Part shown: positions 49-12,941 of the stretch, one piece after another
Layout of the letters: every line of letters starts with the position of its first letter
Position numbering within the stretch: position 1 is the first letter of the stretch
Source of the DNA: Clostridia bacterium
Lineage (GTDB): Bacteria > Bacillota > Clostridia > Oscillospirales > Acutalibacteraceae
DNA length: 57,420 nt
Assembly: GCA_017618135.1 (NCBI GenBank)
Contig: JAFZUV010000006.1
Span: 1 to 57,420 of the forward strand
Direction: 5' to 3'
Notes under the pieces: generated by a model
The model's input: the letters and a program-made list of their open reading frames with translations, nothing else
What the model was told of the DNA's origin: nothing
The model's database searches: none
Made by a program: the position numbers and the translations under genes

Positions 49-77
49 TTGATTGTTTTTGGTATTTCTGCTATAAT
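49..77 (+). promoter_or_regulatory. Promoter of the FHA/PP2C/kinase operon
   Basis: TTGATT (49-54) and TATAAT (72-77) are separated by 17 bp. TG stands two bases before the -10 box, so this is an extended -10 sigma-A type promoter. About 75 bp of leader follow before the start codon at 161, which has AGGAG just upstream. The genes to 10,810 are closely packed and I saw no other promoter this good among them. Confidence 0.72.
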
Positions 78-160: not shown

Positions 161-1618
161 ATGGATAACCAAATTTTATTGAAAAAGATTGTAAAAGAGC
201 CTGCTTTAATTGTTTTCTTCAGTGACAAAAACTACATCCATAAAGCACTTATTAAAAAGTATTCTACAATTGGAAGAAATACTGATAGTTCTCATGTGGA
301 TATAAGTGTCGATTCCAAGTTTTTCCCCAGGAAGAACGGAATAATTGAGTATTATGATGATGCTTATTATTATATGGCTTTAAGGAACTCTAATGCAACT
401 TACTTAAATGGAATAAAGTTAAAGGAAGAGGAAAAACACAAGTTATGCGATGGAGATGTTCTTCAGGTGTTTGAATGGGCTGACAGACAAATACAAAACG
501 CAGTGACTATGGTGTTCGTAATAGATTACATAGATAATTTTACTGTAAATTCCGTTGAGACTATAGGTGATAATTTTCGAACTGTTGTTGGAAATGATAA
601 GGCAGATGACACCATTGAGTTTTTTATGGCTAAAAATGGTTTAGCTGTTTCAGCACAAGAAAGCGCAACAAGTATTAATCTTAATGGCAAAAAACTTGAA
701 AAAGCAAAATATTTACGGATTGGCGATTGTGTAAGAATTGATAATATTTGTTTTTTCTATTCGGGCAACTCCATTGTATATCAGAATCCTGTAAATAAAA
801 ATACATCTTTCCAATCTGACTCTGATGTGCTTGATATATGCATTAAAGAGCGAAGCGTATGGCAACATTCAAAAAAACTGGTTTTATTGAAAGATATCAG
901 CATAAAAATTAACCCGGGAGAAATGGTGTTGATCCTGGGCGGCTCGGGTGCGGGTAAAACCACATTTATGAATGCGGTGATGGGTTATGAAAAGGCACAA
1001 GGAAAAATAATGCTTGGCGATACTGATATATATGCAGATTATGAATCAATCAAGAGCAAGATTGGTTTTGTTCCACAGCAAGATCTGGTTCGTGGAAGTG
1101 ATACGGTATATAACACGCTTGAGAATGCGGCAGAAATGAAATTGTCAAGAGAAATCAAAAAAGATGAGAGGAATACAATTATAGAATCAGTCCTTAAAAC
1201 TTTCAGTTTATGGGAAGTTAAGGACCATTTAATATCGAAACTTGCCGGAGGACAGAAAAAGCGAATAAGTGTCGCTATTGAATATATTGCAAATCCGAGT
1301 TTGTTTTTCTTGGATGAACCGGATTCGGGTCTTGACGGACCGGAGGCCAGTAAACTCATGCAAAATTTGCGAAGGATAGCCGATGAAGGGAAAATAGTTA
1401 TGGTTATTTCTCATATTCCGGACAGGGCATCTAATTTGTTTGATAAGGTTATTGTATTGGCAAAAAGTAAGAAAACCAACTGCGGTCACTTGGCATTCTT
1501 TGGCTCAATAAAAGAGGCGCTAAATTATTTTGAGACAGATACTCTTGAGGGCGTTGTTAAAAGAATAAATACTGACGGTCTTTCCGACTATTACATAGAT
1601 AAATATAAGAAAGGTTGA
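161..1618 (+). CDS. Tandem FHA-domain ABC transporter ATPase (ABCG/Rv1747-like)
   Basis: Predicted cytoplasmic ATPase of an exporter whose permease is the next gene. Residues about 35-105 form an FHA-like domain (IGRN, NATYLNG), and about 130-210 a second, weaker FHA-like repeat (SINLNGKKL). An ABC domain follows, with Walker A GGSGAGKTT near 260-268, signature LAGGQKKR near 361, and Walker B LFFLDEPDSGLDG near 381. The LAGGQ-type signature and short spacing fit the ABCG/ABC-2 group. FHA domains bind phosphothreonine; in the first one the GR pair is kept but the usual SxxH reads PRKN. In Mycobacterium Rv1747 two FHA domains, ATPase and permease are one chain controlled by a kinase. Here ATPase and permease are separate, with kinases and phosphatases in the same operon. 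The AGGAG site fixes the start. Regulation by phosphorylation is inferred. Confidence 0.88.
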   Translation: MDNQILLKKIVKEPALIVFFSDKNYIHKALIKKYSTIGRNTDSSHVDISVDSKFFPRKNGIIEYYDDAYYYMALRNSNATYLNGIKLKEEEKHKLCDGDVLQVFEWADRQIQNAVTMVFVIDYIDNFTVNSVETIGDNFRTVVGNDKADDTIEFFMAKNGLAVSAQESATSINLNGKKLEKAKYLRIGDCVRIDNICFFYSGNSIVYQNPVNKNTSFQSDSDVLDICIKERSVWQHSKKLVLLKDISIKINPGEMVLILGGSGAGKTTFMNAVMGYEKAQGKIMLGDTDIYADYESIKSKIGFVPQQDLVRGSDTVYNTLENAAEMKLSREIKKDERNTIIESVLKTFSLWEVKDHLISKLAGGQKKRISVAIEYIANPSLFFLDEPDSGLDGPEASKLMQNLRRIADEGKIVMVISHIPDRASNLFDKVIVLAKSKKTNCGHLAFFGSIKEALNYFETDTLEGVVKRINTDGLSDYYIDKYKKG

Positions 1619-1628
1619 GAATTATAAA

Positions 1629-2435
1629 ATGTCTGCAAGAACAAATCAAATTAAAATATATACGAAAACGTGTTTTAATGTATTCTTTAATGATCGTGGC
1701 TGGAAGGTCTTTATAAGTTCGGCAATAATAACACTTATTATTTGTAGCGTTACAAGTTCAGATATGTTTTCTGAGTATAGAGCGACTCAAAACGGTGCGT
1801 TTGCTCTTGTTTGCGCATGTATATGGATTGGTATTTTTAATTCCATACAGTCTATTTGTAAAGAACGAGACATAATTAAGCGCGAACATAGGTCGGGTAT
1901 GCATATTTCGTCATACATAACAGCTCATTTGATTTTTGAAATGGTGCTTTGCATTTTTGAATCTGTTATAGTAACGGCTATTATATGTATTGCAAACCAT
2001 AAAAGTTTACCGGATAAAGGAGTGCTATTTCCTACAATTATCGAGTTTGCAATTACTTTTTTTATTATCATTTATAGTTCCGACAGTCTGGGATTAATGG
2101 TATCAAGCATTGTAAAAACTCCAAATACCGCTATGACAGTTATGCCGTTTGTATTGATTATACAACTTGTAATGTCCGGTATGATTTTTGAGCTTAAAGG
2201 ATTTACTGAACAAATTGCTAAATTAACAATAGCAAAATGGGGGCTGAATGCTATATGCATAACCGCAAATATAAATTCGTTATCCAGCAAAATACCTATT
2301 GAAAAGGTTGTAGAGGATTATAAGCATTCTGTATCAAATTATTCAAAGATGATAATTATACTGTCTGGATTTACGGTTTTATATGCGATTATAAGTATTA
2401 TAAGCCTCAAGTTTATTGATAAAGACAAGAGATAG
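1629..2435 (+). CDS. ABC-2 type permease, partner of the FHA-ABC ATPase
   Basis: A 268-residue integral membrane protein with about six hydrophobic segments (roughly residues 27-44, 53-75, 97-122, 133-160, 167-188 and 240-262), the layout of ABC-2 membrane half-transporters. It starts 10 bp after the FHA-ABC gene, so the two should form the transporter, probably as a 2+2 complex. The segment after the fourth helix (SIVKTPNTAMTVMPFVLI) resembles the conserved ABC-2 stretch before the last helices. The substrate cannot be read from sequence. Export of a lipid, glycolipid or wall component is a guess from Rv1747, which has been linked to cell-envelope lipids. A stand-alone ABCG-type permease beside an FHA ATPase is the split version of a normally fused protein. 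Confidence 0.8.
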   Translation: MSARTNQIKIYTKTCFNVFFNDRGWKVFISSAIITLIICSVTSSDMFSEYRATQNGAFALVCACIWIGIFNSIQSICKERDIIKREHRSGMHISSYITAHLIFEMVLCIFESVIVTAIICIANHKSLPDKGVLFPTIIEFAITFFIIIYSSDSLGLMVSSIVKTPNTAMTVMPFVLIIQLVMSGMIFELKGFTEQIAKLTIAKWGLNAICITANINSLSSKIPIEKVVEDYKHSVSNYSKMIIILSGFTVLYAIISIISLKFIDKDKR

Positions 2436-2443
2436 GAGAAAGA

Positions 2444-3169
2444 ATGTTTCAATTTGCTACTGTGACTGATAAGGGCAGTCGTAAAATTAACGAAGACTCT
2501 ATAGGCGTTTTTCAAAACGGCGATAACTTTGGTTGTGTTTTATGCGACGGTTTGGGCGGTCACGGAATGGGTGACGAGGCCTCTAAACTTGTGAAAGATG
2601 TTTTTACAGATGTTTTTTATAAAACAAAGGATATCAAAAACTTCCTGAAAGCTGCATTTTGTGCTGCACAAGATATTCTTCTGCTTGAACAAAGCTCGAA
2701 AAATGCGAAGAACAAAATGAAAACAACTGCAGTTTCATTTGTTGCAAACAACAAGAATTTGTATATAGGTCACATAGGAGATTCAAGACTTTATTTGTTT
2801 AGAAAAAATAAGGTAATGCTAAGGACTATTGATCATAGTGTGCCTCAAATGCTTGCACTCTCCGGTGATATAAAAGAATCGGAAATAAGAAATCATCACG
2901 ACAGAAATATTGTTTTAAAGGTTATGGGTATAGATTGGGAAAATGAAGAGTTTGATTTAATGAAACCTATTTCTCTGAAAAAATGTCAAGCTGTTTTGTT
3001 ATGTTCAGATGGATTTTGGGAACTTATTGACGAGAAAGAAATGTGTAATTATTTGAAGTCGGCAGGTTCGGTTGATGAATGGCTTGAAATGATGCAGGAT
3101 GAAGTGAGGAGTAAAGGCACAGGAAAGAACATGGATAACTATTCTGCAATCGCAGTATGGAATATATAG
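2444..3169 (+). CDS. PP2C-family Ser/Thr protein phosphatase
   Basis: A compact single-domain PP2C/PPM phosphatase of 241 residues without membrane segments. The metal-binding motifs are intact: KINEDSIG near residue 14, CDGLGGHGMGDEAS near 34, GDSRLYLF near 112, DHSVPQML, the SDGFWELID motif near 188, and a final DNYSAIAVW. Such enzymes remove phosphate from Ser/Thr on proteins using two Mn/Mg ions, and usually oppose a kinase encoded nearby. Two kinases lie downstream. The gene follows the permease by 8 bp with a GGAG ribosome site. It is the PrpC/Stp-like half of the system; a second PP2C follows at once, and how the two share targets is unknown. Confidence 0.92.
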   Translation: MFQFATVTDKGSRKINEDSIGVFQNGDNFGCVLCDGLGGHGMGDEASKLVKDVFTDVFYKTKDIKNFLKAAFCAAQDILLLEQSSKNAKNKMKTTAVSFVANNKNLYIGHIGDSRLYLFRKNKVMLRTIDHSVPQMLALSGDIKESEIRNHHDRNIVLKVMGIDWENEEFDLMKPISLKKCQAVLLCSDGFWELIDEKEMCNYLKSAGSVDEWLEMMQDEVRSKGTGKNMDNYSAIAVWNI

Positions 3170-3183
3170 GAGATATTTTATGT

Positions 3184-3981
3184 ATGAAAAGTGATAAAGA
3201 TAATTACACTTTTTCCGAAAAGAACAAAGTGTTTGATATGATTATAACCTCTGAAATCGGAGACAGAGAAGAACAGCAGGACGCATCTGGTTTTATTGTT
3301 GAGGACAATCGCGGAATAGTAATGATTTGTGATGGCATGGGCGGTCATGATTGTGGTAAACTGGCAAGCAATCTTGCTGTTAATGATTTTTTAGAGGAAT
3401 ATGATAATTTCAATAATTATTGCAGCGTAAAAAATTTTTATTGCTCAACTGCTGAAAGTGCCAATGCAAAAATAGGCAACCTTAAAGATGCATTTGGCAA
3501 AAAACTCATGGCCGGAACCACTATTGTTTCTGTTTTTATAAATGAGCATTCTCTTTATTGGCTTTCAATAGGCGATAGTCGCATTTATTTATACAGAAAC
3601 GGCGATTTTGTGCAAATAAATACAGACCATAATTTAAAAACTCTGCTTGAAAAACAATTGTCGGTGGATGAAATAACTAAAGATGAATACAATGCTCAGA
3701 TAGTGAACGGGAACACCCTTGTCAGCTTTTTAGGAATGGGCGAATTAAAATATATCGATTCTAATGAGTCTGATTTTAAGTTGAACTCCGGAGATATAGT
3801 GATGCTCACAACGGATGGACTCTATAAAATGCTGACTGATAATACGATTAAAGAAGTGTTGGATAATTTCCCCGATGTAAGGGATATTTCCCATGTTTTA
3901 AGTATTAAAGCGAATAAATTTTCAAAAAAGAATGCAATGCAAATGGACAATACCACATTTGCTATTATTAAAATAATGTGA
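3184..3981 (+). CDS. Second PP2C-family Ser/Thr phosphatase
   Basis: A PP2C phosphatase in tandem with the previous gene but only distantly similar to it. Motifs: REEQQDASG near the start, ICDGMGGHDCGKLAS, GTTIV, SIGDSRIYLY, TDHNLK, LTTDGLYKM and MDNTTFAII. All metal-binding Asp positions seem present. The reading frame extends up to an ATG at 3157 inside the previous gene, but that codon has no ribosome site. The ATG at 3184 follows TAGGAG by 11 nt, so I chose it; this gives 265 residues and no overlap. Substrates are probably the two kinases and the FHA-bound phosphoproteins encoded around it. The function call is firm; the division of labour with its neighbour is unknown. Confidence 0.9.
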   Translation: MKSDKDNYTFSEKNKVFDMIITSEIGDREEQQDASGFIVEDNRGIVMICDGMGGHDCGKLASNLAVNDFLEEYDNFNNYCSVKNFYCSTAESANAKIGNLKDAFGKKLMAGTTIVSVFINEHSLYWLSIGDSRIYLYRNGDFVQINTDHNLKTLLEKQLSVDEITKDEYNAQIVNGNTLVSFLGMGELKYIDSNESDFKLNSGDIVMLTTDGLYKMLTDNTIKEVLDNFPDVRDISHVLSIKANKFSKKNAMQMDNTTFAIIKIM

Positions 3982-3997
3982 TTTGGGGGATAAATAA

Positions 3998-4792
3998 ATG
4001 AATGTTATTAAATGTGAGAACGGGCACCATTTTGACGGCGACAAATATGAAGTTTGCCCTATTTGCGGAGGAAAATCAGCCTCATTAGATGTGGCTACAA
4101 CTTCCGAGGAGGAAAAGCCAAATCGTATTAAGGGTCTATTTAGCAGAAAAAAAGAAAATCAAGAATCAATAATTGACGAAAAGACGACAGGTCAATTTAT
4201 AGATTCACCCTCTAAAGCCGTGCTGGTCAACGAGGATGTTGAAATTGAAGATGATCTTGACCCTGAATTCCCAAAAGAAGGAAAGTCTGAAACACCGCAA
4301 AATAAAGGAACTGAAAACTTGAGTGAATCCATTGAAAAGGTTAAATCGAATGATGAAAAAACAATGGGATTTTTCAGTTCCGGCAGTAAAAACAGTAACC
4401 CGGATAGTAGCCAAATAAAACATGATGTAGATTTCCCTGTGGGTTGGTTGGTTTGCGTCAAGGGGAATAATTTAGGAAAAACATTCCCAATTTCCGCCGG
4501 ACAGAATACGATAGGCAGAAATTCCAAATACACAATAGCACTTGAAGGTGACTCCTATGTTTCCGCCAGCAACATTCACGCAAAACTCATATATGAACCA
4601 AATGAGAGACGATTTATGCTTATGAACGGGGACAGCAGCAGCCTTACATATCTTAATGGAAATGCAGTTTATGTTCCTGCCCGATTGGAGTTATTTGATA
4701 AGATTAGTTTTGGCAATATTAAAGGCAACGAATATGTTTTTGTTCCGCTTTGCGGTGAAAATTTTTCGTGGACTGATTATGTGGAGGATTAA
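3998..4792 (+). CDS. Zinc-ribbon FHA-domain adaptor protein
   Basis: A soluble 264-residue protein in three parts. Residues 1-27 carry a zinc-knuckle of the type KCENGHHFD...CPICGG. Residues about 30-145 are charged and low in complexity, containing two DEKTxGxF-like segments (DEKTTGQF, DEKTMGFF) that could be kinase sites because each presents Thr. Residues about 150-250 form a canonical FHA domain with IGRNSK, SNIHAKL and SLTYLNG, so the phosphothreonine-binding residues look intact, unlike those in the FHA-ABC protein. It lies 2 bp before the first kinase gene, so translation is probably coupled. The likely role is to bind a phosphorylated partner, possibly itself in trans through the repeated DEKT segments; that is inference. 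Confidence 0.85.
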   Translation: MNVIKCENGHHFDGDKYEVCPICGGKSASLDVATTSEEEKPNRIKGLFSRKKENQESIIDEKTTGQFIDSPSKAVLVNEDVEIEDDLDPEFPKEGKSETPQNKGTENLSESIEKVKSNDEKTMGFFSSGSKNSNPDSSQIKHDVDFPVGWLVCVKGNNLGKTFPISAGQNTIGRNSKYTIALEGDSYVSASNIHAKLIYEPNERRFMLMNGDSSSLTYLNGNAVYVPARLELFDKISFGNIKGNEYVFVPLCGENFSWTDYVED

Positions 4793-4794
4793 GG

Positions 4795-6756
4795 ATGAAG
4801 CGGTGCTTATCTTGCTTTAAAGAATACAACGATGAATTAAATAAGTGTCCATATTGCGGTGCCAAGGAAGATATATCCGCTGATGAGCCGATACATCTTG
4901 CACCGGGAACTATCCTAAACGGGAGATATTTAATCGGTAAAGCCTTGGGCTCCGGTGGTTTCGGCATACTTTATAAGGCATGGGATTTAAAGCTTGAAGC
5001 TGTAGTCGCCGTAAAAGAATTCTTTTGCAGCAGACTTATGACGAGGGCTGTTGGTATCCCAGAGGTAATTGTTGGTAAAAAGCCAGAAACTATATCCGAA
5101 TTTTCCTACAGAAAAGACCGTTTTTTGGATGAAGCGCGCAATCTTGCAAAATTCACCGGCGGTAAGTTTATCCCAAATGTTTTCGAGTATTTTGAAGAAA
5201 ACAAAACCGCATATTTTGTAATGGAATATTTGGAGGGAACCGATTTAAGGCATTACCTTGAGCAAAATAAAAATCTAACTCCCGATTTTGCCGTATATAT
5301 TGCAAATTCTGTTGGTAATGCGTTATGCGAGTTGCATTCTAAAGGGATTGTTCACCGCGATGTTGCGCCGGATAATATTTTTATAAAATCCGATAAGGAA
5401 CTAAATGTTGTTTTACTTGATTTAGGTGCCGCTTATTTGCCCGATGCTAAAAGTGATGCAATAGATATTATTCTTAAACCGGGATACTCTCCTCCTGAAC
5501 AATATAACAGTATGAGTGATGTGGGCATATGGTCTGATATTTATGCTCTGGGTGCTACCTTATATACTGCCCTGACAGGCGTTAAGCCGGACGAATCGTC
5601 TAATCGAAAAACCGAGGACACGGTTGTTCCGCCAAACGAGTTAAATCCCGAAGTGCCTGAAAATTTAAGCAATGCTATTATGAAGGCAATGGCTATAGAG
5701 CCTCATATGAGATTCAAAAGCGTTAAAGAGTTTTTAAGAGCGATAAACGGCGAACGGAAAGTAACAACGCTTAAAAAAGAGAAAAAGCGCCGCCGCCGAA
5801 TAAGATTCGGCAGCATTATAGCCGCTTGTGTTGTATTAGCAATCTTGGGAACCAGTGTTTGGCAGGTTTATGATAAAGAAAGATCAGAACAATATCTGAA
5901 AGATGCCTATATTACTATATGGTGTAATGCACAAGAAGATTCACCTAAAGGAAAAGCCATAAAGAGCGTTGTTGATGATTTTAATACAAAGTTTGAAAAT
6001 GTAAAAACCGAATTAAAAATGATTCCGGGCGATGAATATTTTACAGAGCTTGAAAAAGCCGCTGAATCCGGGACCTTGCCGAATCTTTTTGAAAGCAGCA
6101 ATATTTCTGAAAAAGTTCTTAACAAGGCAGAAGATGTTTCAAAGATTCTTGATTCCGAGCAGGCGAAAGATTGCCTTTTCTTAGGACAGTATGATAGTTA
6201 CTACAAAACAAAAAAACAAATCCCTCTTGGCATAGAAATTCCTATGGCTTGCGTTATTACAAAAGGTGTTGCATCGGTTGATTATGAAAAAGAGTATTTT
6301 TCTTCTGTCTCTGATTTTGGCACCGCCGCTATCGCTTTGGCTGAAGGAACGGATAATCTTATTTTTAAGAATATTCAAAAAACTGATTTTGCTCCCGATA
6401 CAACTTTTTTTGATAATAGCAATAACAGCAGTGCTGTTTTGCTTACATCAACCATGCAGATAAATAAAATCAGGGAGGAACTTACTAATTATTCGAAACA
6501 TTTTGTTTTTTGTGATTCCGATAAGATTTACTGTAACTTTATTTATGAGTGGAGTATTGGCAAAGCTAATAGATCACAAACTGCCGCCTCGGAAAGATTA
6601 CTTTCATGGATGCTTGGCAATGCTTATCAAAACACTTTGATGATAAGTAAATGCAGTGACGGTCAAATACCTGTAAATAAGACATGCTTTGAAGAAAAAA
6701 CAAGCGGTAAAAACTATAAGGCAATTAAAGAAATATACGAGAAATTCGTGTTTTAA
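4795..6756 (+). CDS. Membrane Ser/Thr kinase with solute-binding-protein-like sensor
   Basis: Order of parts in 653 residues: zinc ribbon (CLSC...CPYCG, 4-22); kinase domain about 45-320 with GSGGFG at 52-57, VAVKEF with Lys74, HRDVAPDN from 187, DLG at 209 in place of DFG, and PGYSPPEQY as activation segment; a basic stretch KKRRRR; one membrane helix about 341-361; then about 290 residues outside. The outer part starts ITIWCNAQ and reads like a family 1 solute-binding protein: DFNTKF, an AESGTLPNLFE segment, PLGIEIPM, and near the end ERLLSWMLGNAYQ and GQIPVNK. Catalytic Lys and Asp are present, so an active kinase is likely despite DLG. The unusual fusion suggests a kinase that senses a sugar or oligosaccharide directly; the ligand is unknown. 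Confidence 0.88.
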   Translation: MKRCLSCFKEYNDELNKCPYCGAKEDISADEPIHLAPGTILNGRYLIGKALGSGGFGILYKAWDLKLEAVVAVKEFFCSRLMTRAVGIPEVIVGKKPETISEFSYRKDRFLDEARNLAKFTGGKFIPNVFEYFEENKTAYFVMEYLEGTDLRHYLEQNKNLTPDFAVYIANSVGNALCELHSKGIVHRDVAPDNIFIKSDKELNVVLLDLGAAYLPDAKSDAIDIILKPGYSPPEQYNSMSDVGIWSDIYALGATLYTALTGVKPDESSNRKTEDTVVPPNELNPEVPENLSNAIMKAMAIEPHMRFKSVKEFLRAINGERKVTTLKKEKKRRRRIRFGSIIAACVVLAILGTSVWQVYDKERSEQYLKDAYITIWCNAQEDSPKGKAIKSVVDDFNTKFENVKTELKMIPGDEYFTELEKAAESGTLPNLFESSNISEKVLNKAEDVSKILDSEQAKDCLFLGQYDSYYKTKKQIPLGIEIPMACVITKGVASVDYEKEYFSSVSDFGTAAIALAEGTDNLIFKNIQKTDFAPDTTFFDNSNNSSAVLLTSTMQINKIREELTNYSKHFVFCDSDKIYCNFIYEWSIGKANRSQTAASERLLSWMLGNAYQNTLMISKCSDGQIPVNKTCFEEKTSGKNYKAIKEIYEKFVF

Positions 6757-6773
6757 GTTGGAGGATAAATAAT

Positions 6774-9482
6774 ATGGACAAACGATGCATGGGCTGTATG
6801 GAAAACTTCCCCGGAGAGCTTGAAGTGTGCCCTCATTGCGGATATATTGTAGATTCTCAGGTTGAAGAAGCAATTCATATTGTCCCGGGCTCTTTATTGC
6901 ATGATAGGTATATTGTGGGTAAAGTGTTGGGTTATGGCAGCTTTGGAGTTACATATATTGCGTGGGACGGTAAACTTGAACGTAAGGTCGCTATTAAAGA
7001 GTATATGCCCAGCGAGTTTTCAACAAGAATGCCCGGGCAGTCCTGCCTTACCGTATTTGGCGGAGACAAGTCCGAACAGTTTCAGGATGGCCTTAAAAAA
7101 TTTGTTGACGAAGCAAAAAGACTTGCAAAATTCAATAATGAACCGGGTATAGTAAGCATATTTGATAGCTTTCTTGAAAACGATACTGCATATATCGTTA
7201 TGGAATATCTTGACGGTGAAACGCTGGGTGACCGCTTAAAAAGAGAAAAAGTCGAAATAAAAGGTAAAAACGGCACTGAAATAAGATCACTTCCTATACC
7301 TGAGGATGAAGCTGTATCCCTGCTTTTGCCTGTTATGAATTCGCTTATAACCGTTCATAAAGAAGGCATTATACACCGTGATATCGCGCCCGATAATATC
7401 TTTATAACCAAAGAAGGCAATGTAAAACTTATAGATTTTGGTGCCTCGCGCTATGCAACAACCTCTCACAGCCGAAGCCTTACCACAATTGTAAAACCCG
7501 GATATTCGCCTAAAGAGCAATATGATAGCCGTGGCGATCAAGGTCCGCATACCGATGTTTATGCTCTTGCGGCAACATTATATAAGATGATAACCGGGAA
7601 AACTCCGCCGGAAGCTATGGGCAGAAACGCAATCTGCGAAACAAAACACCGTGATCCTCTCATAGAACCTCATAAGATCGTTAAAAACATATCTGAGGTT
7701 ACCGAAAACGCTATACTTAATGCACTTAATATAAGAATAGAGGATAGAACTCCCGATGTTGAAACATTTATAAATGAGTTGAGTGCCACTGTGCCTGCAA
7801 AGCGCAAATATGGCAAGATAAAAAAAATAGACCTTTATAATTGGCCTTTGTGGATGAAAATTACCGTTCCTGTTATTGCCACACTTATGGTCACTTTTGG
7901 AGCACTCGTTTTAACCGGTGTTATTAAATTTAATTCTTTGTTTTCTGATAAAGTTGTAGTTCCGGACGGGATGGTTAGTGTCCCTGATGTTGAAAATCTT
8001 GATAAGGATGAAGCAATAAGTAAAATAGAGAGCACTAAATTATTAGCCGTTGCCGGAGGCAATGTTGAATCCGAGTATGTCGAAGCCGGTATTATTGTGC
8101 TTCAAACGCCGGATGGCGGCTCTTTTGCTGATATAAACAGCGAAGTAAAACTTATTGTGAGTTCGGGTGTCGGCGTTGTTGAGGTAAAAGACGGTATTGC
8201 CACAGTCCCATATGTTGTTTGGAATACCCAAGATGAGGCTGTTGCTAAACTAAAACAAGCAGGTCTTTCCGAGCCTATTGTTGAGACGAAGAGCGATGAT
8301 AATGTTGAAGCCGGTCGAGTAATCAGCCAAAGTAAATCTTCGGGTGAAAAAGTTCCCGAGGGCACTCAGATCACTATTGTTGTATCTACGGGCGCCGCAT
8401 CGTTTGATATGATAAATGTTGTTGGCAAGCCCTTATCAGATGCAAAATCATCATTAGAGAAAAAGGCACTGAAAGTTAATGTGTCATATGAGAAAAACTC
8501 TTCTGTTTCAGAGGGCACTGTTATCTCCCAAAGCATAGCGGCCGGTAAAAAAGTTAAGAAAGGTGATGCCGTAACACTCAAGGTTTCAAGCGGCAAACCA
8601 CTCGTTACCGTTGCAAATGTAGTCGGCAAAACACAAAGCACCGCAACACAAGCGTTGGAAAAACAAGGATTTAAGATTTCTGTATCTTACGGCGGATATA
8701 GTTCAAACACACCTTACGGTAGTGTTCTGTCCCAAAGCCCTGCTGCCGGTACATCTCAAATAGAGGGCTTTAATATTTCGTTGGTGTTAAGTAAAGGCCC
8801 GGATTGGTCGTCATACACAGGCACATTACCTTCAGCAGTTAATTCTAACGATTATGAAATACGGTATCAGTACAGAGATAAAATACCATATTCCGAATCA
8901 AGTTCTTCTTCTGTCGCTCCTAATAAATCGGGATATACATATGTTAATACAACTAGTGCCCTTGGTGATTATGGATCTTGGAGTTCATGGGGTACAGAGT
9001 ATCCAGAAAATATCACAGGAAGACAGATAGACCCTAAAACACAGTACGGATATTACCATTACAAATTGTATTTTTGGGATGCAGAAGATAATGTTTGGCG
9101 TTGGGGTTATTATCCTATAACTAAAGATCAGTATAATAATAGCAGTGTGCCGGGATTAAGATGTACAAAAATGGATTCTCAAAAAATTGTATGGGTGGAT
9201 AGTGAACTCAAAGCTGTAGATACACTTACATATGGTGTTACCGGAAAGGTGATTGCATACGAGCATATCTGCAATGATTGTGAAATATATGTGCCTGGTC
9301 CAGGTGATGCTAAACGTGCAAATTATCTTTATAGTTATGGCGCAAGAACCGTTTATAGGTATAGAGATAGGCAGACAATATATACTCATAATTATTATAG
9401 TTGGGGATCATGGACTAAAACTAATAGTTTGCCTTCTTCAAATAGTAACAGAGAAATACAATACAGTTATCGTAGAAAATAG
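6774..9482 (+). CDS. PASTA-repeat Ser/Thr kinase (PrkC-like) with Tyr/Trp-rich tail
   Basis: A 902-residue membrane kinase. Zinc ribbon RCMGC...CPHCG at 4-23; kinase domain about 45-335 with GYGSFG at 53-58, VAIKEY, HRDIAPDN from 201, and DFG from 221 followed by ASRY; membrane helix about 363-385; four PASTA repeats at about 400-465, 474-541, 543-607 and 610-677; then about 220 residues rich in Tyr, Trp and Ser with YQYRD, WSSWG, VYRYRD and WGSWTK. PASTA domains of PrkC/PknB kinases bind muropeptides and report wall state. The tail resembles Tyr-Arg/Trp-Ser repeats of secreted clostridial proteins and may bind wall glycans (inference). A ribosome site TTGGAGG precedes the ATG. The zinc ribbon is an addition to standard PrkC and is shared with the operon neighbours. 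Confidence 0.92.
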   Translation: MDKRCMGCMENFPGELEVCPHCGYIVDSQVEEAIHIVPGSLLHDRYIVGKVLGYGSFGVTYIAWDGKLERKVAIKEYMPSEFSTRMPGQSCLTVFGGDKSEQFQDGLKKFVDEAKRLAKFNNEPGIVSIFDSFLENDTAYIVMEYLDGETLGDRLKREKVEIKGKNGTEIRSLPIPEDEAVSLLLPVMNSLITVHKEGIIHRDIAPDNIFITKEGNVKLIDFGASRYATTSHSRSLTTIVKPGYSPKEQYDSRGDQGPHTDVYALAATLYKMITGKTPPEAMGRNAICETKHRDPLIEPHKIVKNISEVTENAILNALNIRIEDRTPDVETFINELSATVPAKRKYGKIKKIDLYNWPLWMKITVPVIATLMVTFGALVLTGVIKFNSLFSDKVVVPDGMVSVPDVENLDKDEAISKIESTKLLAVAGGNVESEYVEAGIIVLQTPDGGSFADINSEVKLIVSSGVGVVEVKDGIATVPYVVWNTQDEAVAKLKQAGLSEPIVETKSDDNVEAGRVISQSKSSGEKVPEGTQITIVVSTGAASFDMINVVGKPLSDAKSSLEKKALKVNVSYEKNSSVSEGTVISQSIAAGKKVKKGDAVTLKVSSGKPLVTVANVVGKTQSTATQALEKQGFKISVSYGGYSSNTPYGSVLSQSPAAGTSQIEGFNISLVLSKGPDWSSYTGTLPSAVNSNDYEIRYQYRDKIPYSESSSSSVAPNKSGYTYVNTTSALGDYGSWSSWGTEYPENITGRQIDPKTQYGYYHYKLYFWDAEDNVWRWGYYPITKDQYNNSSVPGLRCTKMDSQKIVWVDSELKAVDTLTYGVTGKVIAYEHICNDCEIYVPGPGDAKRANYLYSYGARTVYRYRDRQTIYTHNYYSWGSWTKTNSLPSSNSNREIQYSYRRK

Positions 9483-9529
9483 TTTATGTTCTTAATATAT
9501 CCGTGTAAATAAGAAAAAGGAGATACCTT

Positions 9530-10810
9530 ATGCATGATAGAAATAGTCCAGCCGTAAAATGTAGTAACTGTGGAAAGTTCTACAATAAAAACCTAGGATT
9601 ATGTCCATTTTGCGGAACAATTCTTTCAGAGACTTCACCGTCAACTGAAAACGGTACTGACACGCCGAAAAAAACCGATGATTCTATAAAAACAGAAAAT
9701 TATGTATCAAATATAAATAATCCTGTTAAGGCGAGCGAATTTCCTCAAAACAAGCCTTACTTATGGGCGATGCTGTTATGCTTTACAATTGCGCAGATAA
9801 TCACATGGTTTTTACCATGGACAAGATTAAGCACAAATAGTGAACTTGCCGAACTATTGGCAAATCAAAAAATACATTATTTGAATTATCTTGGTAGCCC
9901 CGCAAATGTGCTTAATAATTATTATGATATAAAAGTTCACACCGCATTTTACGATATTGCGGCATTTCTTATGATGGCATCAGTAGTAATAATATTTATC
10001 TATTTCATACTAAGTTTTTCGCAAAAATACTCCGGTAGGATTAAAGGTACTATTGCTTCGGTTTGTATGATAGTTGCAGCATTATTTGTTGAGATTTACA
10101 GACTTAGCTTGAATTCTGCACTTGAAAATGCAGGTCTGAATGAAGCTTATACATTTTCAACCAGCGGTATTTTTGTTTTTGTTATCATATTGTCAGTCGC
10201 GGCAATGATGTTCGGGAATCAAATACAAAAGCGACATAATTTAAGCACAACAAAGCCAGAAAAAATTGTAGAGCTGCCTGTGCCTGGAGACTGGCAGCAT
10301 GAAATTGAAGGACTAACAGATGATATTCTTATCGAGCGTTATCATAATGAATATGAGTGGAGTTCAGGATATAGAGAATTGTGCTATAAAGAGATTCAAA
10401 AGCGTAATCTTTTGATAGATGACACAAACGAAAAAAGTGAAAAATGGATCTGCCCTGAATGCGTACGTGAAAACGACATATTATCAGTGATCTGCAAGTG
10501 CGGATATCAAAGAAACTTTGCAAATGAAGATCCCAAGCAGAAAGAAATATTTCTTAATAGGATATTTGCCGTTTCACCGGAGTGCTTAGAGAAAAAACAA
10601 CGATATTTTCAAAATGATGATAACCAAAATATAATCATTAGATATACCAGTCCGGCAACAATACATGTCTTTCGTCGCAGCGAAAAAGACTGGGTTATTA
10701 TCCCACAGGACAATTCATATTTAAGGGAATTAATGATGGGGCAAGGGAATAATTGCATGACGGAAATATCAATTGAAAAGGCAAAAGAAATAATCGGAAG
10801 TTGGTTTTGA
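9530..10810 (+). CDS. Zinc-ribbon membrane protein of unknown function
   Basis: I do not recognise a named family. In 426 residues it shows an N-terminal zinc ribbon (CSNCGKFYN...CPFCG, residues 11-30), a Ser/Thr/Lys-rich linker, four hydrophobic helices at about 76-98, 143-166, 177-198 and 216-235, and a cytoplasmic C-terminal part with a second zinc ribbon near 306 (CPEC...CKCG). The last 100 residues (for example KDWVIIPQDNSYLREL) match nothing I know. The first ribbon is like those on both kinases and the FHA protein, which together with the shared strand ties it to the phospho-signalling operon. The 47-bp gap before it holds AAAAAGGAG but no clear promoter. It may be a membrane target or scaffold. 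Confidence 0.72.
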   Translation: MHDRNSPAVKCSNCGKFYNKNLGLCPFCGTILSETSPSTENGTDTPKKTDDSIKTENYVSNINNPVKASEFPQNKPYLWAMLLCFTIAQIITWFLPWTRLSTNSELAELLANQKIHYLNYLGSPANVLNNYYDIKVHTAFYDIAAFLMMASVVIIFIYFILSFSQKYSGRIKGTIASVCMIVAALFVEIYRLSLNSALENAGLNEAYTFSTSGIFVFVIILSVAAMMFGNQIQKRHNLSTTKPEKIVELPVPGDWQHEIEGLTDDILIERYHNEYEWSSGYRELCYKEIQKRNLLIDDTNEKSEKWICPECVRENDILSVICKCGYQRNFANEDPKQKEIFLNRIFAVSPECLEKKQRYFQNDDNQNIIIRYTSPATIHVFRRSEKDWVIIPQDNSYLRELMMGQGNNCMTEISIEKAKEIIGSWF

Positions 10811-10811
10811 T

Positions 10812-11837
10812 ATGATTTACACGGAAATGACAAAAAAAGCACTTAAACTTTGTTTTGAGGCTCATAAAAATCAGGTGGATAAATCCGGTATGCCGTATGT
10901 CTTTCACCCCTTTCATTTGGCAGAACAAATGGAAGATGAAAATACAGCGACAGTTGCTCTCCTTCACGATGTTGTGGAAGATACAGAATATTCGTTGGAT
11001 GATTTAAAAAACATGGGTTTTCCGCAACAAGTTATAGAAGCGTTAGGTCTACTTACACATGATAAATCTGTCCCTTATATGGATTATATTGCGGAAATCA
11101 AAAAGAATCCAATAGCTAAAGCTGTAAAACTTGCCGATTTAAAACATAACAGCGACTTATCCCGGCTTGATATTATTGATGAAAAGGCAACAAGCGATTT
11201 CTTTAATATTTCCAGAAATGGTCTAAAATATGGTACAAATAACGATATTGGCGAAATAGTCGGCGAGCATAACGGCAAAGCGGTTTACAGTATGCTCGGC
11301 AGAGTCAGCGATTTTGTGATGACAGATAATCATCGGACATATTACCCCGGCATAAATACTGATAACGGAAGAATCAGCAATGTTGATTTGGGTGCCGGCG
11401 AATTCCTTTTTGACATGCGTGATGTCCTGCTTAACATTGACGGTGTTATGGAGGCACAACCAATATTGTTACCTCGTGATGACGGGTCGTTAGACGGATA
11501 TCCTGTTGCCAATATCACTATTAGGCATGATTGTTCTCCCGTCGACATCTTGAAGGCAATTCACAGCCATTATAAAGAGAGGAATCATAAGTTTGTTCCT
11601 ATGGGAATCATATTCAGAACAAGATTTGCGCGTAGTCTTTCAAGTGATAAGCGTGAAGTAATATCTTTGTTGGATGTGAGAACAGGATATTACAAAATCG
11701 GTGATGACGGACAATGCTATAAAGTTCAATTCCCAAAGGGTCAAAAACCAATCAGTGAATTGATGCCAAATCCAGACGAAATAACTTGTGTTGATCCTCC
11801 CGCGCCCAAGTTAGTCTACTCGTCAATTAAAAGATAA
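10812..11837 (+). CDS. HD-hydrolase/adenylate-ligase chimera
   Basis: Residues 1 to about 125 match the small RelA/SpoT-type HD phosphohydrolases of Clostridia: FHPFHLAEQM, LLHDVVEDTEYS with His52-Asp53, and VKLADLKHNSDLSRLD. Such proteins normally end soon after that point, near 145 residues. From about 135 the chain instead reads like the C-terminal third of an AMP-forming acyl/adenylate ligase: NDIGEIV, MLGRVSDFVM, YYPG, GEFLFDMRDVLL, GVMEAQPIL and a late SSDKREVISLL. The ligase N-terminal part, with its ATP-binding motifs, is absent. The simplest reading is an in-frame deletion near 11,200 that joined two genes. The HD part keeps its catalytic residues and could still work; the ligase part could not activate a substrate alone. 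It follows the previous gene by 1 bp. Confidence 0.7.
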   Translation: MIYTEMTKKALKLCFEAHKNQVDKSGMPYVFHPFHLAEQMEDENTATVALLHDVVEDTEYSLDDLKNMGFPQQVIEALGLLTHDKSVPYMDYIAEIKKNPIAKAVKLADLKHNSDLSRLDIIDEKATSDFFNISRNGLKYGTNNDIGEIVGEHNGKAVYSMLGRVSDFVMTDNHRTYYPGINTDNGRISNVDLGAGEFLFDMRDVLLNIDGVMEAQPILLPRDDGSLDGYPVANITIRHDCSPVDILKAIHSHYKERNHKFVPMGIIFRTRFARSLSSDKREVISLLDVRTGYYKIGDDGQCYKVQFPKGQKPISELMPNPDEITCVDPPAPKLVYSSIKR

Positions 11838-11877: not shown

Positions 11878-12941
11878 ATGTTTGAAAAAGCAAAAGAAGA
11901 GTATAACAAAAAAGTATATGAACAATATAGCGACTGCCTAAATGACATTTCCGATCTGTTTGGGGACGGTCATGATGGTATGTCAAACCTGTTTTACTTA
12001 TGGAACAGGCGCTATTTGCATTGGTTAGACAACGATCCCGAAAATTCGATTTCCGTAAAAGAAATTCGGTTTCGGCGCAAGTTTTATAAGGTGCTGCAAA
12101 AAATAGGTCCCGGCGCATTAAAGTGTACCCAGGTGTTCGAGAACCGCAAGTTGCTCAATGATCCCGACTGTGCCGAAGAAGATGAGCCGGTTGTACTACC
12201 TGATAAACCGGTAATCGTTGTCTCAAATCACGGATTTCACGATGATGTACTCGCAACCACGCTTGCCGCACGCAGACACGCATATTTTCTGTGGGGCTCA
12301 CTACCGCTTCTATACAACACTTTTGACGGTTTTGCAAGCGCGCTTGTCGGTGGTGTGTGCGTAAACCGAAATCATAAAAAAGCCGTCAATCAATGCTTAA
12401 TAAGTCGCTTAAAGCTATTGAATACGGAACGGATATTATCATTTTCCCCGAAGGTGGTTGGAATAAAACTCCGAACAGACCTGTGCTTGATCTTTGGCAA
12501 GGCGTGTACTTAATTTCCAAAGCAGCTCAATGCCCGGTTGTTCCAATTGTTCACTATGTAAGGGATATGGAAATTCTTGATAAAAAGAATCTGATACATA
12601 CCGTAATTGATGATCCTATACCGTTATATGAAATGCCGCAAAAAGAGGCATTATCATATTTGCGAGATGTTCTTGCTTCCTGGACTTGGAAAATGATGGA
12701 GCGGTATGGACAATCAACAAGGTCGGCCGAAATGAAAGGTGCGGATTCTGCTGACGAGCGTTGGGATCAACTCCTCAAAGAACGCCTTAAAGGTGTTGCA
12801 AGATATGACTCCCAGATAGAGAAAAAAGCCGATTACAGGCCAAAAGATATTGTGCGAATCGAAGATGTATTTGAACCGGTCGCTAATGTGCCGGATAGCC
12901 GCATAACATTTATGACGGTTGGTTTATTTTTTCTCAGATAA
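11878..12941 (+). pseudogene. PlsC-type acyltransferase, frameshifted and truncated
   Basis: Two frames together spell one 1-acylglycerol-phosphate-type acyltransferase. The first frame, from ATG 11,878, has the HX4D motif in SNHGFHDD (His118) and the segment VCVNRNHKKAVNQ. Near 12,390 the match moves to another frame beginning MLNKSLKAIEYG, which carries the FPEGGWNKTPN motif and the rest of the domain. One missing base at about 12,388-12,393 explains it. The first frame runs on without homology to 12,513. At the 3' end the match stops at FEPVANV near 12,890, where a TnpV-like remnant on the other strand begins. Such acyltransferases often neighbour adenylate ligases, which fits the ligase remnant upstream. 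A base-calling error could mimic the frameshift, but not the truncation. Confidence 0.8.

Follow-up and report, generated by a model that had tools for sequence, protein, structure and literature searches.

Two modules joined in one clostridial gene run: a split FHA-FHA-ABC exporter and a phosphatase, FHA and kinase set

How is an ABC exporter controlled when its ATPase carries two FHA domains, lies in one run with Ser/Thr kinase genes and has lost much of the pockets by which such domains bind phosphothreonine? The question is raised by a 57,420-nucleotide stretch of a Clostridia bacterium genome (family Acutalibacteraceae, contig JAFZUV010000006.1), hereafter the window. Eight open reading frames (ORFs), named here A to H, were all confirmed in its ORF list at 161-10810 on the forward strand, in one run as a sequence-only reading of the window had reported, with gaps from A to H of 10, 8, -13 (an overlap), 16, 2, 17 and 47 bases. 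The locus is composed of two joined modules: a split FHA-FHA-ABC exporter (A-B) and a PP2C-PP2C-FHA-kinase-kinase set (C-G). The reading tentatively preferred here, with a probability of roughly 40%, is that C-G would form a relay in which a kinase sensing through a solute-binding-protein (SBP) domain and a PASTA kinase act on a GarA-like switch reset by the PP2Cs, with the A-B exporter as its output. The established point of comparison is the Rv1747-PknF system of Mycobacterium tuberculosis, described in excerpts of two papers as an FHA-FHA ABC exporter with a kinase gene in its operon (PMC3908365, PMC5549992).

The two modules and their separate occurrence

Gene A (161..1618) codes for a 485-residue FHA-FHA-ABC ATPase (ORF list, Pfam, family FHA model) and gene B (1629..2435) for an ABC-2 permease with six transmembrane (TM) segments by simple hydropathy. 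The phosphatase genes C (2444..3169) and D (3157..3981) overlap by 13 bases and were assigned from Pfam, NCBIfam and alignment. Gene E (3998..4792) encodes a zinc-ribbon-like N-terminus, a variable linker holding a threonine and an FHA domain (Pfam, alignment, PDB profile). The two kinases were characterized by Pfam, hydropathy and alignment. F (4795..6756) and G (6774..9482) both display an N-terminal CxxC..CxxC zinc-ribbon pattern, a Ser/Thr kinase domain and one TM segment. F ends in an SBP-like ectodomain (5893..6753) recognized by Pfam, whose profile retrieved sugar-binding proteins from the PDB, the best being 7v09 at 1.2e-11. G continues with four PASTA stretches and an unassigned C-terminus. 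Its kinase domain, single TM segment and PASTA repeats give it the layout of the PASTA Ser/Thr kinases (Stk1/PknB), with an NCBIfam score of 323 bits, under the cut-off of 450. The components named by the sequence-only reading are thus borne out by Pfam, with PP2C in C and D, FHA in E, Pkinase in F and G and ABC2_membrane in B. It had rightly placed both kinases in the membrane, but had missed their zinc-ribbon patterns and the ectodomain of F. Judged by eye in alignments with orthologues, neither the kinases nor the phosphatases have lost their catalytic motifs; F has DLG instead of DFG, likewise in L104 and L066.

The order C-D-E-F-G is the same in five other family genomes (L102, L103, L104, L105 and L164), F and G being separated in L164 by a single ORF of 97 aa, and a looser variant with other genes interspersed is found in L161. 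Identity between the window and L104 is 62% for C, 37% for D, 56% for F and 50% for G. The FHA-ABC gene is absent from six core genomes (these five and that of the looser variant, G459) when all candidates are scored with the family profile; among the seven genomes searched with this profile, only G343, of the same genus as the window, gave a match. A search with the single protein A in the six core genomes returned ATPase-domain matches only, at 1e-21 or weaker.

FHA-ABC genes have their own distribution. They occur in at least 13 of 300 family genomes at 1e-40 (own counted), a lower bound with five ABC candidates scored per genome, and in 3 of 70 genus genomes at 1e-25 (own counted). A GTDB contig search returned 57 loci, 52 of them clear (L015-L066); the counts that follow include all 52, many truncated by contig ends. 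The permease is a separate ORF within 1.5 kb at 48 of these loci, and the splitting of the transporter, which had been singled out as distinctive, is therefore no special feature. The whole FHA-FHA-ATPase-permease order is found in one chain, as in Rv1747, in five proteins (L007, L008, L009, L011 and L014). A Ser/Thr kinase lies within 6 kb at 33 loci (27 on the same strand), a PP2C at 16 and a vWA domain near 3. Where 4.5 kb is available on both sides (n=27), 19 loci have a kinase, 8 a PP2C and 8 neither; among five control loci, four had no kinase or PP2C, L070 not being scored. Gene orders vary between PP2C-kinase-A-B, PP2C-A-B-kinase and A-B-PP2C-kinase-kinase. No separate E-type protein was found by the E model at any of the 52 loci.

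Other genes were observed near these exporters. A ClpP/NfeD-like gene lies directly upstream of the FHA-ABC gene at L019:9200-9922 (Pfam) and L020:9172-9921 (clustering). vWA and kinase genes with a PP2C lie near the FHA-ABC pair in L044:4118-12594 (checked with Pfam), L053 and L028, and a membrane zinc-ribbon FHA protein is found near the pair in L044 and L053. A vWA-PP2C-kinase triad of the TerY-P type was also considered for the window and rejected: a vWA model seeded with one sequence found no match in its first 14 kb.

The locus had been presented as one system of eight genes. A-B with a kinase and C-G each recur in relatives but not as the full set. The lack of a conserved neighborhood, which the earlier reading had named as its refutation, thus does not apply to the parts, but since the two modules separate there, one conserved eight-gene system has to be given up. 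This separation also favors the most serious of the alternatives, namely that exporter and relay are unrelated neighbors sharing a transcript, the exporter being constitutive or independent of phosphorylation. Such a chance association agrees with the core lacking an FHA-ABC gene in five genomes, with the missing E-type protein at the 52 loci and with copies of A whose pockets are degraded (L050, L055, L060, L063 and L064) and which the E model finds without an E-type neighbor. It is nevertheless rather unlikely, given gaps of at most 16 bases from A through E and a juxtaposition that recurs, because A-B also adjoin a PP2C and two kinases in L066 and L018.

The FHA domains of the exporter

Protein A was aligned with 65 homologues, most rows showing two canonical FHA domains. 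Pocket integrity was scored on five residues (G, R, S, H and N) taken from an excerpt of PMC5549992, according to which they are critical in Rad53 FHA1 and Rv1747 has them in its FHA I. In the window, FHA1 (266..466; alignment with homologues) keeps three of the five, G38, R39 and N78, and differs from the family consensus by S56P, H59N, D73A, S76N and G79A. The degenerate FHA2 (533..790; alignment and family model) keeps one of five, with R145N, the pocket Ser missing, H151T, D165A, N170T and G171S. The residue losses within it are in frame, and its flanks still align. In Pfam, A matches ABC_tran and one FHA, FHA1 at 37 bits; FHA2 is detected only by the family model, at 46 bits against a median of 102 over 78 rows that are mostly the same as those that built the model. 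The tandem-FHA ATPase of the earlier reading is thus present in outline, with both domains stripped of key residues and without the two intact pockets of the Rv1747 type. The change is concentrated in these domains: 5 of 14 strongly conserved positions are altered in FHA1 and 6 of 11 in FHA2, whereas the ATPase domain (857..1570; Pfam ABC_tran, alignment) differs at 4 of 73. In addition, the N-terminal Thr found in 47 of 55 rows of the A family is a Gln in the window.

After removal of five rows with one or both pockets all gap (L010, L056, L058, L060 and L062), 60 homologues were comparable. All five residues are present in both FHA domains of 45 of them, and at least four in both domains of 52. 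Both domains are degraded in L050, L055, L063 and L064 and FHA2 alone (2/5) in L007, L008 and L014; L013 is cut at its start, and L060 is partly degraded in its pockets. Pocket loss is thus not unique to the window. In L050, L055 and L064, replacement of the lost domains by another FHA protein was examined and gained no support, FHA models and the E model finding none; Pfam detected no FHA in four neighboring proteins of L050 and L064. In the same-genus copy L106, inspection by eye shows neither pocket degraded and an intact KTV start. In a tree of the ATPase domain the window falls, with weak support (89/81), in a group of 17 rows of which the other 16, L002 and L026 being identical, have intact FHA domains with 19 to 22 of 22 consensus residues.

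The degraded pockets leave ordinary FHA control of this exporter, as the sequence-only reading had it, unsupported. Judged on their residues, the FHA domains of the exporter in this lineage would be poor readers of phosphothreonine, and A-B is doubtful as an FHA-controlled exporter. Control of the Rv1747 kind, in which F or G would phosphorylate either A or a partner and A would bind the product with its FHA domains and switch export, is an unlikely reading here. Rv1747-like logic does recur in Clostridia, through the kinases and PP2Cs near FHA-ABC genes, the fused forms, the mostly intact pockets and the common N-terminal Thr; it is seen in L066, where A-B-PP2C-kinase.SBP-kinase.PASTA accompanies FHA domains with 4 or 5 of 5 pocket residues. 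In the window, F and G share the strand of A-B in a run of closely spaced genes, and FHA1 still scores in Pfam with R39 and N78 in place. Its pocket, however, has lost Ser and His, that of FHA2 has lost Arg, Ser, His and Asn, and the N-terminal Thr is gone. Early decay, with the FHA-ABC gene losing constraint and its changed FHA domains being lost, would suit a small genome (1.63 Mb), the in-frame losses in FHA2 and a gene confined to three of 70 genus genomes, yet it is very improbable with an open frame, 69 of 73 conserved ATPase positions kept, a permease matching Pfam and FHA2 flanks still alignable.

Adaptor E and the proposed relay

Protein E, with a conserved linker threonine and a profile closest to GarA and OdhI among solved structures, is a better candidate phospho-reader than the tandem FHA domains of the exporter. 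An E-type gene is present in 28 of 398 genomes of the family (own counted), and of 20 stretches fetched around such genes 18 have both kinase and PP2C matches. Gly, Arg, Ser and His of the pocket are present in all 12 aligned E rows. So is the linker threonine, Thr122 in the window (codon 4361..4363, motif KTMGFF), with Lys121 in 11 of 12 and only two other linker columns reaching 9 of 12, in a set of rows picked after the motif had been seen and not including the motif-less L113 and L100. In a wider set (n=31, from 32 E sequences of which one is without the GWLV mark, including near copies that are not independent, such as L156 and L157 with the same linker), the Thr motif is found in 15 by a strict pattern and in 24 by eye. 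Of 15 E linkers, 11 contain the pattern [KR]T[VILM], against a mean of 1.3 and a maximum of 5 over 1000 shuffles; these 15 were taken from 20 prefixes, L096 being too short and L091, L092, L098 and L099 having no FHA ORF.

Compared with the PDB, the E profile gave eight best matches between 3e-9 and 7e-7, six of them labeled GarA or OdhI. The remaining two, Rv1827 and Mb1858, are presumably GarA as well. In the best alignment (HMMER), KTVGVF of the E profile is aligned with ETTSVF of GarA. The E motif is not ETTS, its conserved Thr standing in KT[VILM]xx[FY]. With NCBIfam, FhaB was matched by 12 of the 12 E rows and OdhI by 8. A plain GarA orthologue was considered for E and dropped as unproved, FhaB matching better in NCBIfam. 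E plausibly works like GarA, at most as a candidate member of that family.

Under the preferred reading, kinase F would sense an extracellular ligand through its sugar-binding-protein-like ectodomain, and kinase G the wall through its PASTA repeats. Thr122 of the E linker may be the substrate of both, and the FHA domain of E would then bind the phosphorylated threonine, in cis or between copies, and change partner as GarA and OdhI do. The phosphatases C and D would reset E. Conservation speaks for the components of this relay. The A-B exporter would be the probable output, reached through E or another partner. A fusion in L066, where an E-type zinc ribbon (29 bits) precedes the F-type kinase and the E model finds no E gene in the 11.5 kb starting 48 bases before A, hints in this single case that E and F cooperate.

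Several observations weigh against this relay. Beyond the choice of the 12 rows, 7 of the 31 wider E sequences have no clear Thr motif. The canonical pocket Asn is lacking in E-type FHA domains, that of the window included, and in the E of the window the spacing from pocket Ser to His is longer by one residue. The posterior of the best PDB alignment is only 0.3-0.4, and in a second PDB alignment the register differs, KTVGVF falling off ETTSVF. In NCBIfam, the E of the window is matched best by FhaB, well under its cut-off, and is not among the 8 rows that match OdhI. The Arg39 and Asn78 retained in FHA1 of A make weak binding by the exporter itself possible. Finally, no other examined genome has E adjoining an FHA-ABC gene, so that the link from E to the exporter depends on this genome. 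A further step would be a switch from a cis to a trans reader: the exporter would have lost both pockets and its N-terminal Thr, a GarA-like switch with a sugar-sensing kinase would have taken over, and a GarA-type relay outside Actinobacteria would be wired to export. This evolutionary scenario is improbable as it stands.

Two further arrangements of FHA proteins were observed. In L154:5825-11405 and in L152, one run contains an ABC-2 exporter pair devoid of FHA, a LytTR regulator, an E-type FHA protein, a 114-aa FHA protein, a zinc-ribbon kinase and a PP2C (Pfam on four L154 proteins), an exporter with FHA readers in trans. Membrane proteins with a trypsin-like or vWA domain and a C-terminal FHA lie inside kinase and PP2C sets at L112:5077-8908, L115:8943-10352, L044:13717-15447 and L116:13082-14824.

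Surroundings of the run and known systems

Gene H (9530..10810) encodes a membrane protein, as had been read, while its zinc-ribbon-like N-terminus has weak matches only. Apart from the genome of the window, none of the 300 family genomes (299 others) has a match to H at 1e-6, and H was dropped as a conserved component. Gene I (10812..11837, forward strand), an HD_4-domain protein (Pfam) and perhaps a nucleotide hydrolase, starts one base after H; the run therefore comprises at least nine genes, and the eight that had been taken for a complete operon are part of this longer run. Gene I is probably in the same transcript as H. A sigma-70-like promoter found by motif scan, TTGATT-17-TATAAT with a TG preceding the -10 (49..77, forward strand), suggests a transcript start nearby, although such sites are as a class not above chance (48 observed against 46.7 in shuffles). 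Upstream genes are outside the view because the contig (C16) starts at base 1 of the window. Downstream, an acyltransferase-like gene (PF01553, weak; 11878-12941) is split over overlapping frames, 11878-12513 and 12393-12941, and looks frameshifted or misassembled. Directly after the run, an 8396-aa ORF (13480-38670) appears by eye to encode a giant surface protein that is rich in repeats, starts like a signal sequence and ends like a dockerin. Over the genome, the FHA model matched two genes, both within A-H. A second pair of PP2C and PASTA kinase is located on contig C11 and a further zinc-ribbon PASTA kinase on contig C12, and the A-H locus is for this reason regarded as an accessory set.

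A literature search by title and start of abstract, with most subscription journals outside it, found no clostridial set of FHA-ABC, kinase and PP2C. If the findings hold, FHA-ABC exporters with kinases and phosphatases would constitute a recurrent clostridial kit, and the proposed relay names a testable phosphosite, Thr122 of E, and a likely ligand class, sugars. The comparisons with cited systems below are limited to excerpts of the papers. Like Rv1747-PknF, the window has two FHA domains on the ATPase of an ABC exporter and a Ser/Thr kinase in the same operon. Rv1747 is one polypeptide whose FHA I has the five critical residues, in contrast to A-B, which are two genes with both pockets degraded, and the window adds a second kinase, a pair of PP2Cs and an FHA protein apart from the exporter. 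G with its PASTA repeats and the PP2Cs of the same run recall PrkC/Stk1 with PrpC/Stp1, but scores are under the curated cut-offs, the kinases carry zinc-ribbon patterns and a separate pair exists on contig C11.

The proposed sensor-to-FHA logic is that of GlnH-GlnX-PknG-GarA/OdhI in Actinobacteria (PMC6069109), in which the catalytic core of PknG is adjoined by a rubredoxin-like module (PMC8546545). Both systems unite a solute-binding sensor, putative in the window, a kinase with a rubredoxin-like or zinc-ribbon-like module, and an FHA protein, in the window a candidate switch, with a Thr motif N-terminal to the FHA. Unlike in Actinobacteria, the SBP-like domain and the kinase form a single protein in the window, connected by one TM segment, the host is clostridial, and E differs from GarA and OdhI by its zinc-ribbon-like N-terminus and by KTMGFF instead of ETTSVF. 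GarA has been called unique to Actinobacteria (PMC12321487); the proposed relay, if true, would extend the SBP-kinase-FHA-switch logic of that phylum to Clostridia. Fusion of a Ser/Thr kinase to an extracellular solute-binding domain is known in Streptomyces coelicolor, where it is of the Glu/Gln type (PMC1262709), whereas F resembles sugar-binding proteins and belongs to a recurrent five-gene set.

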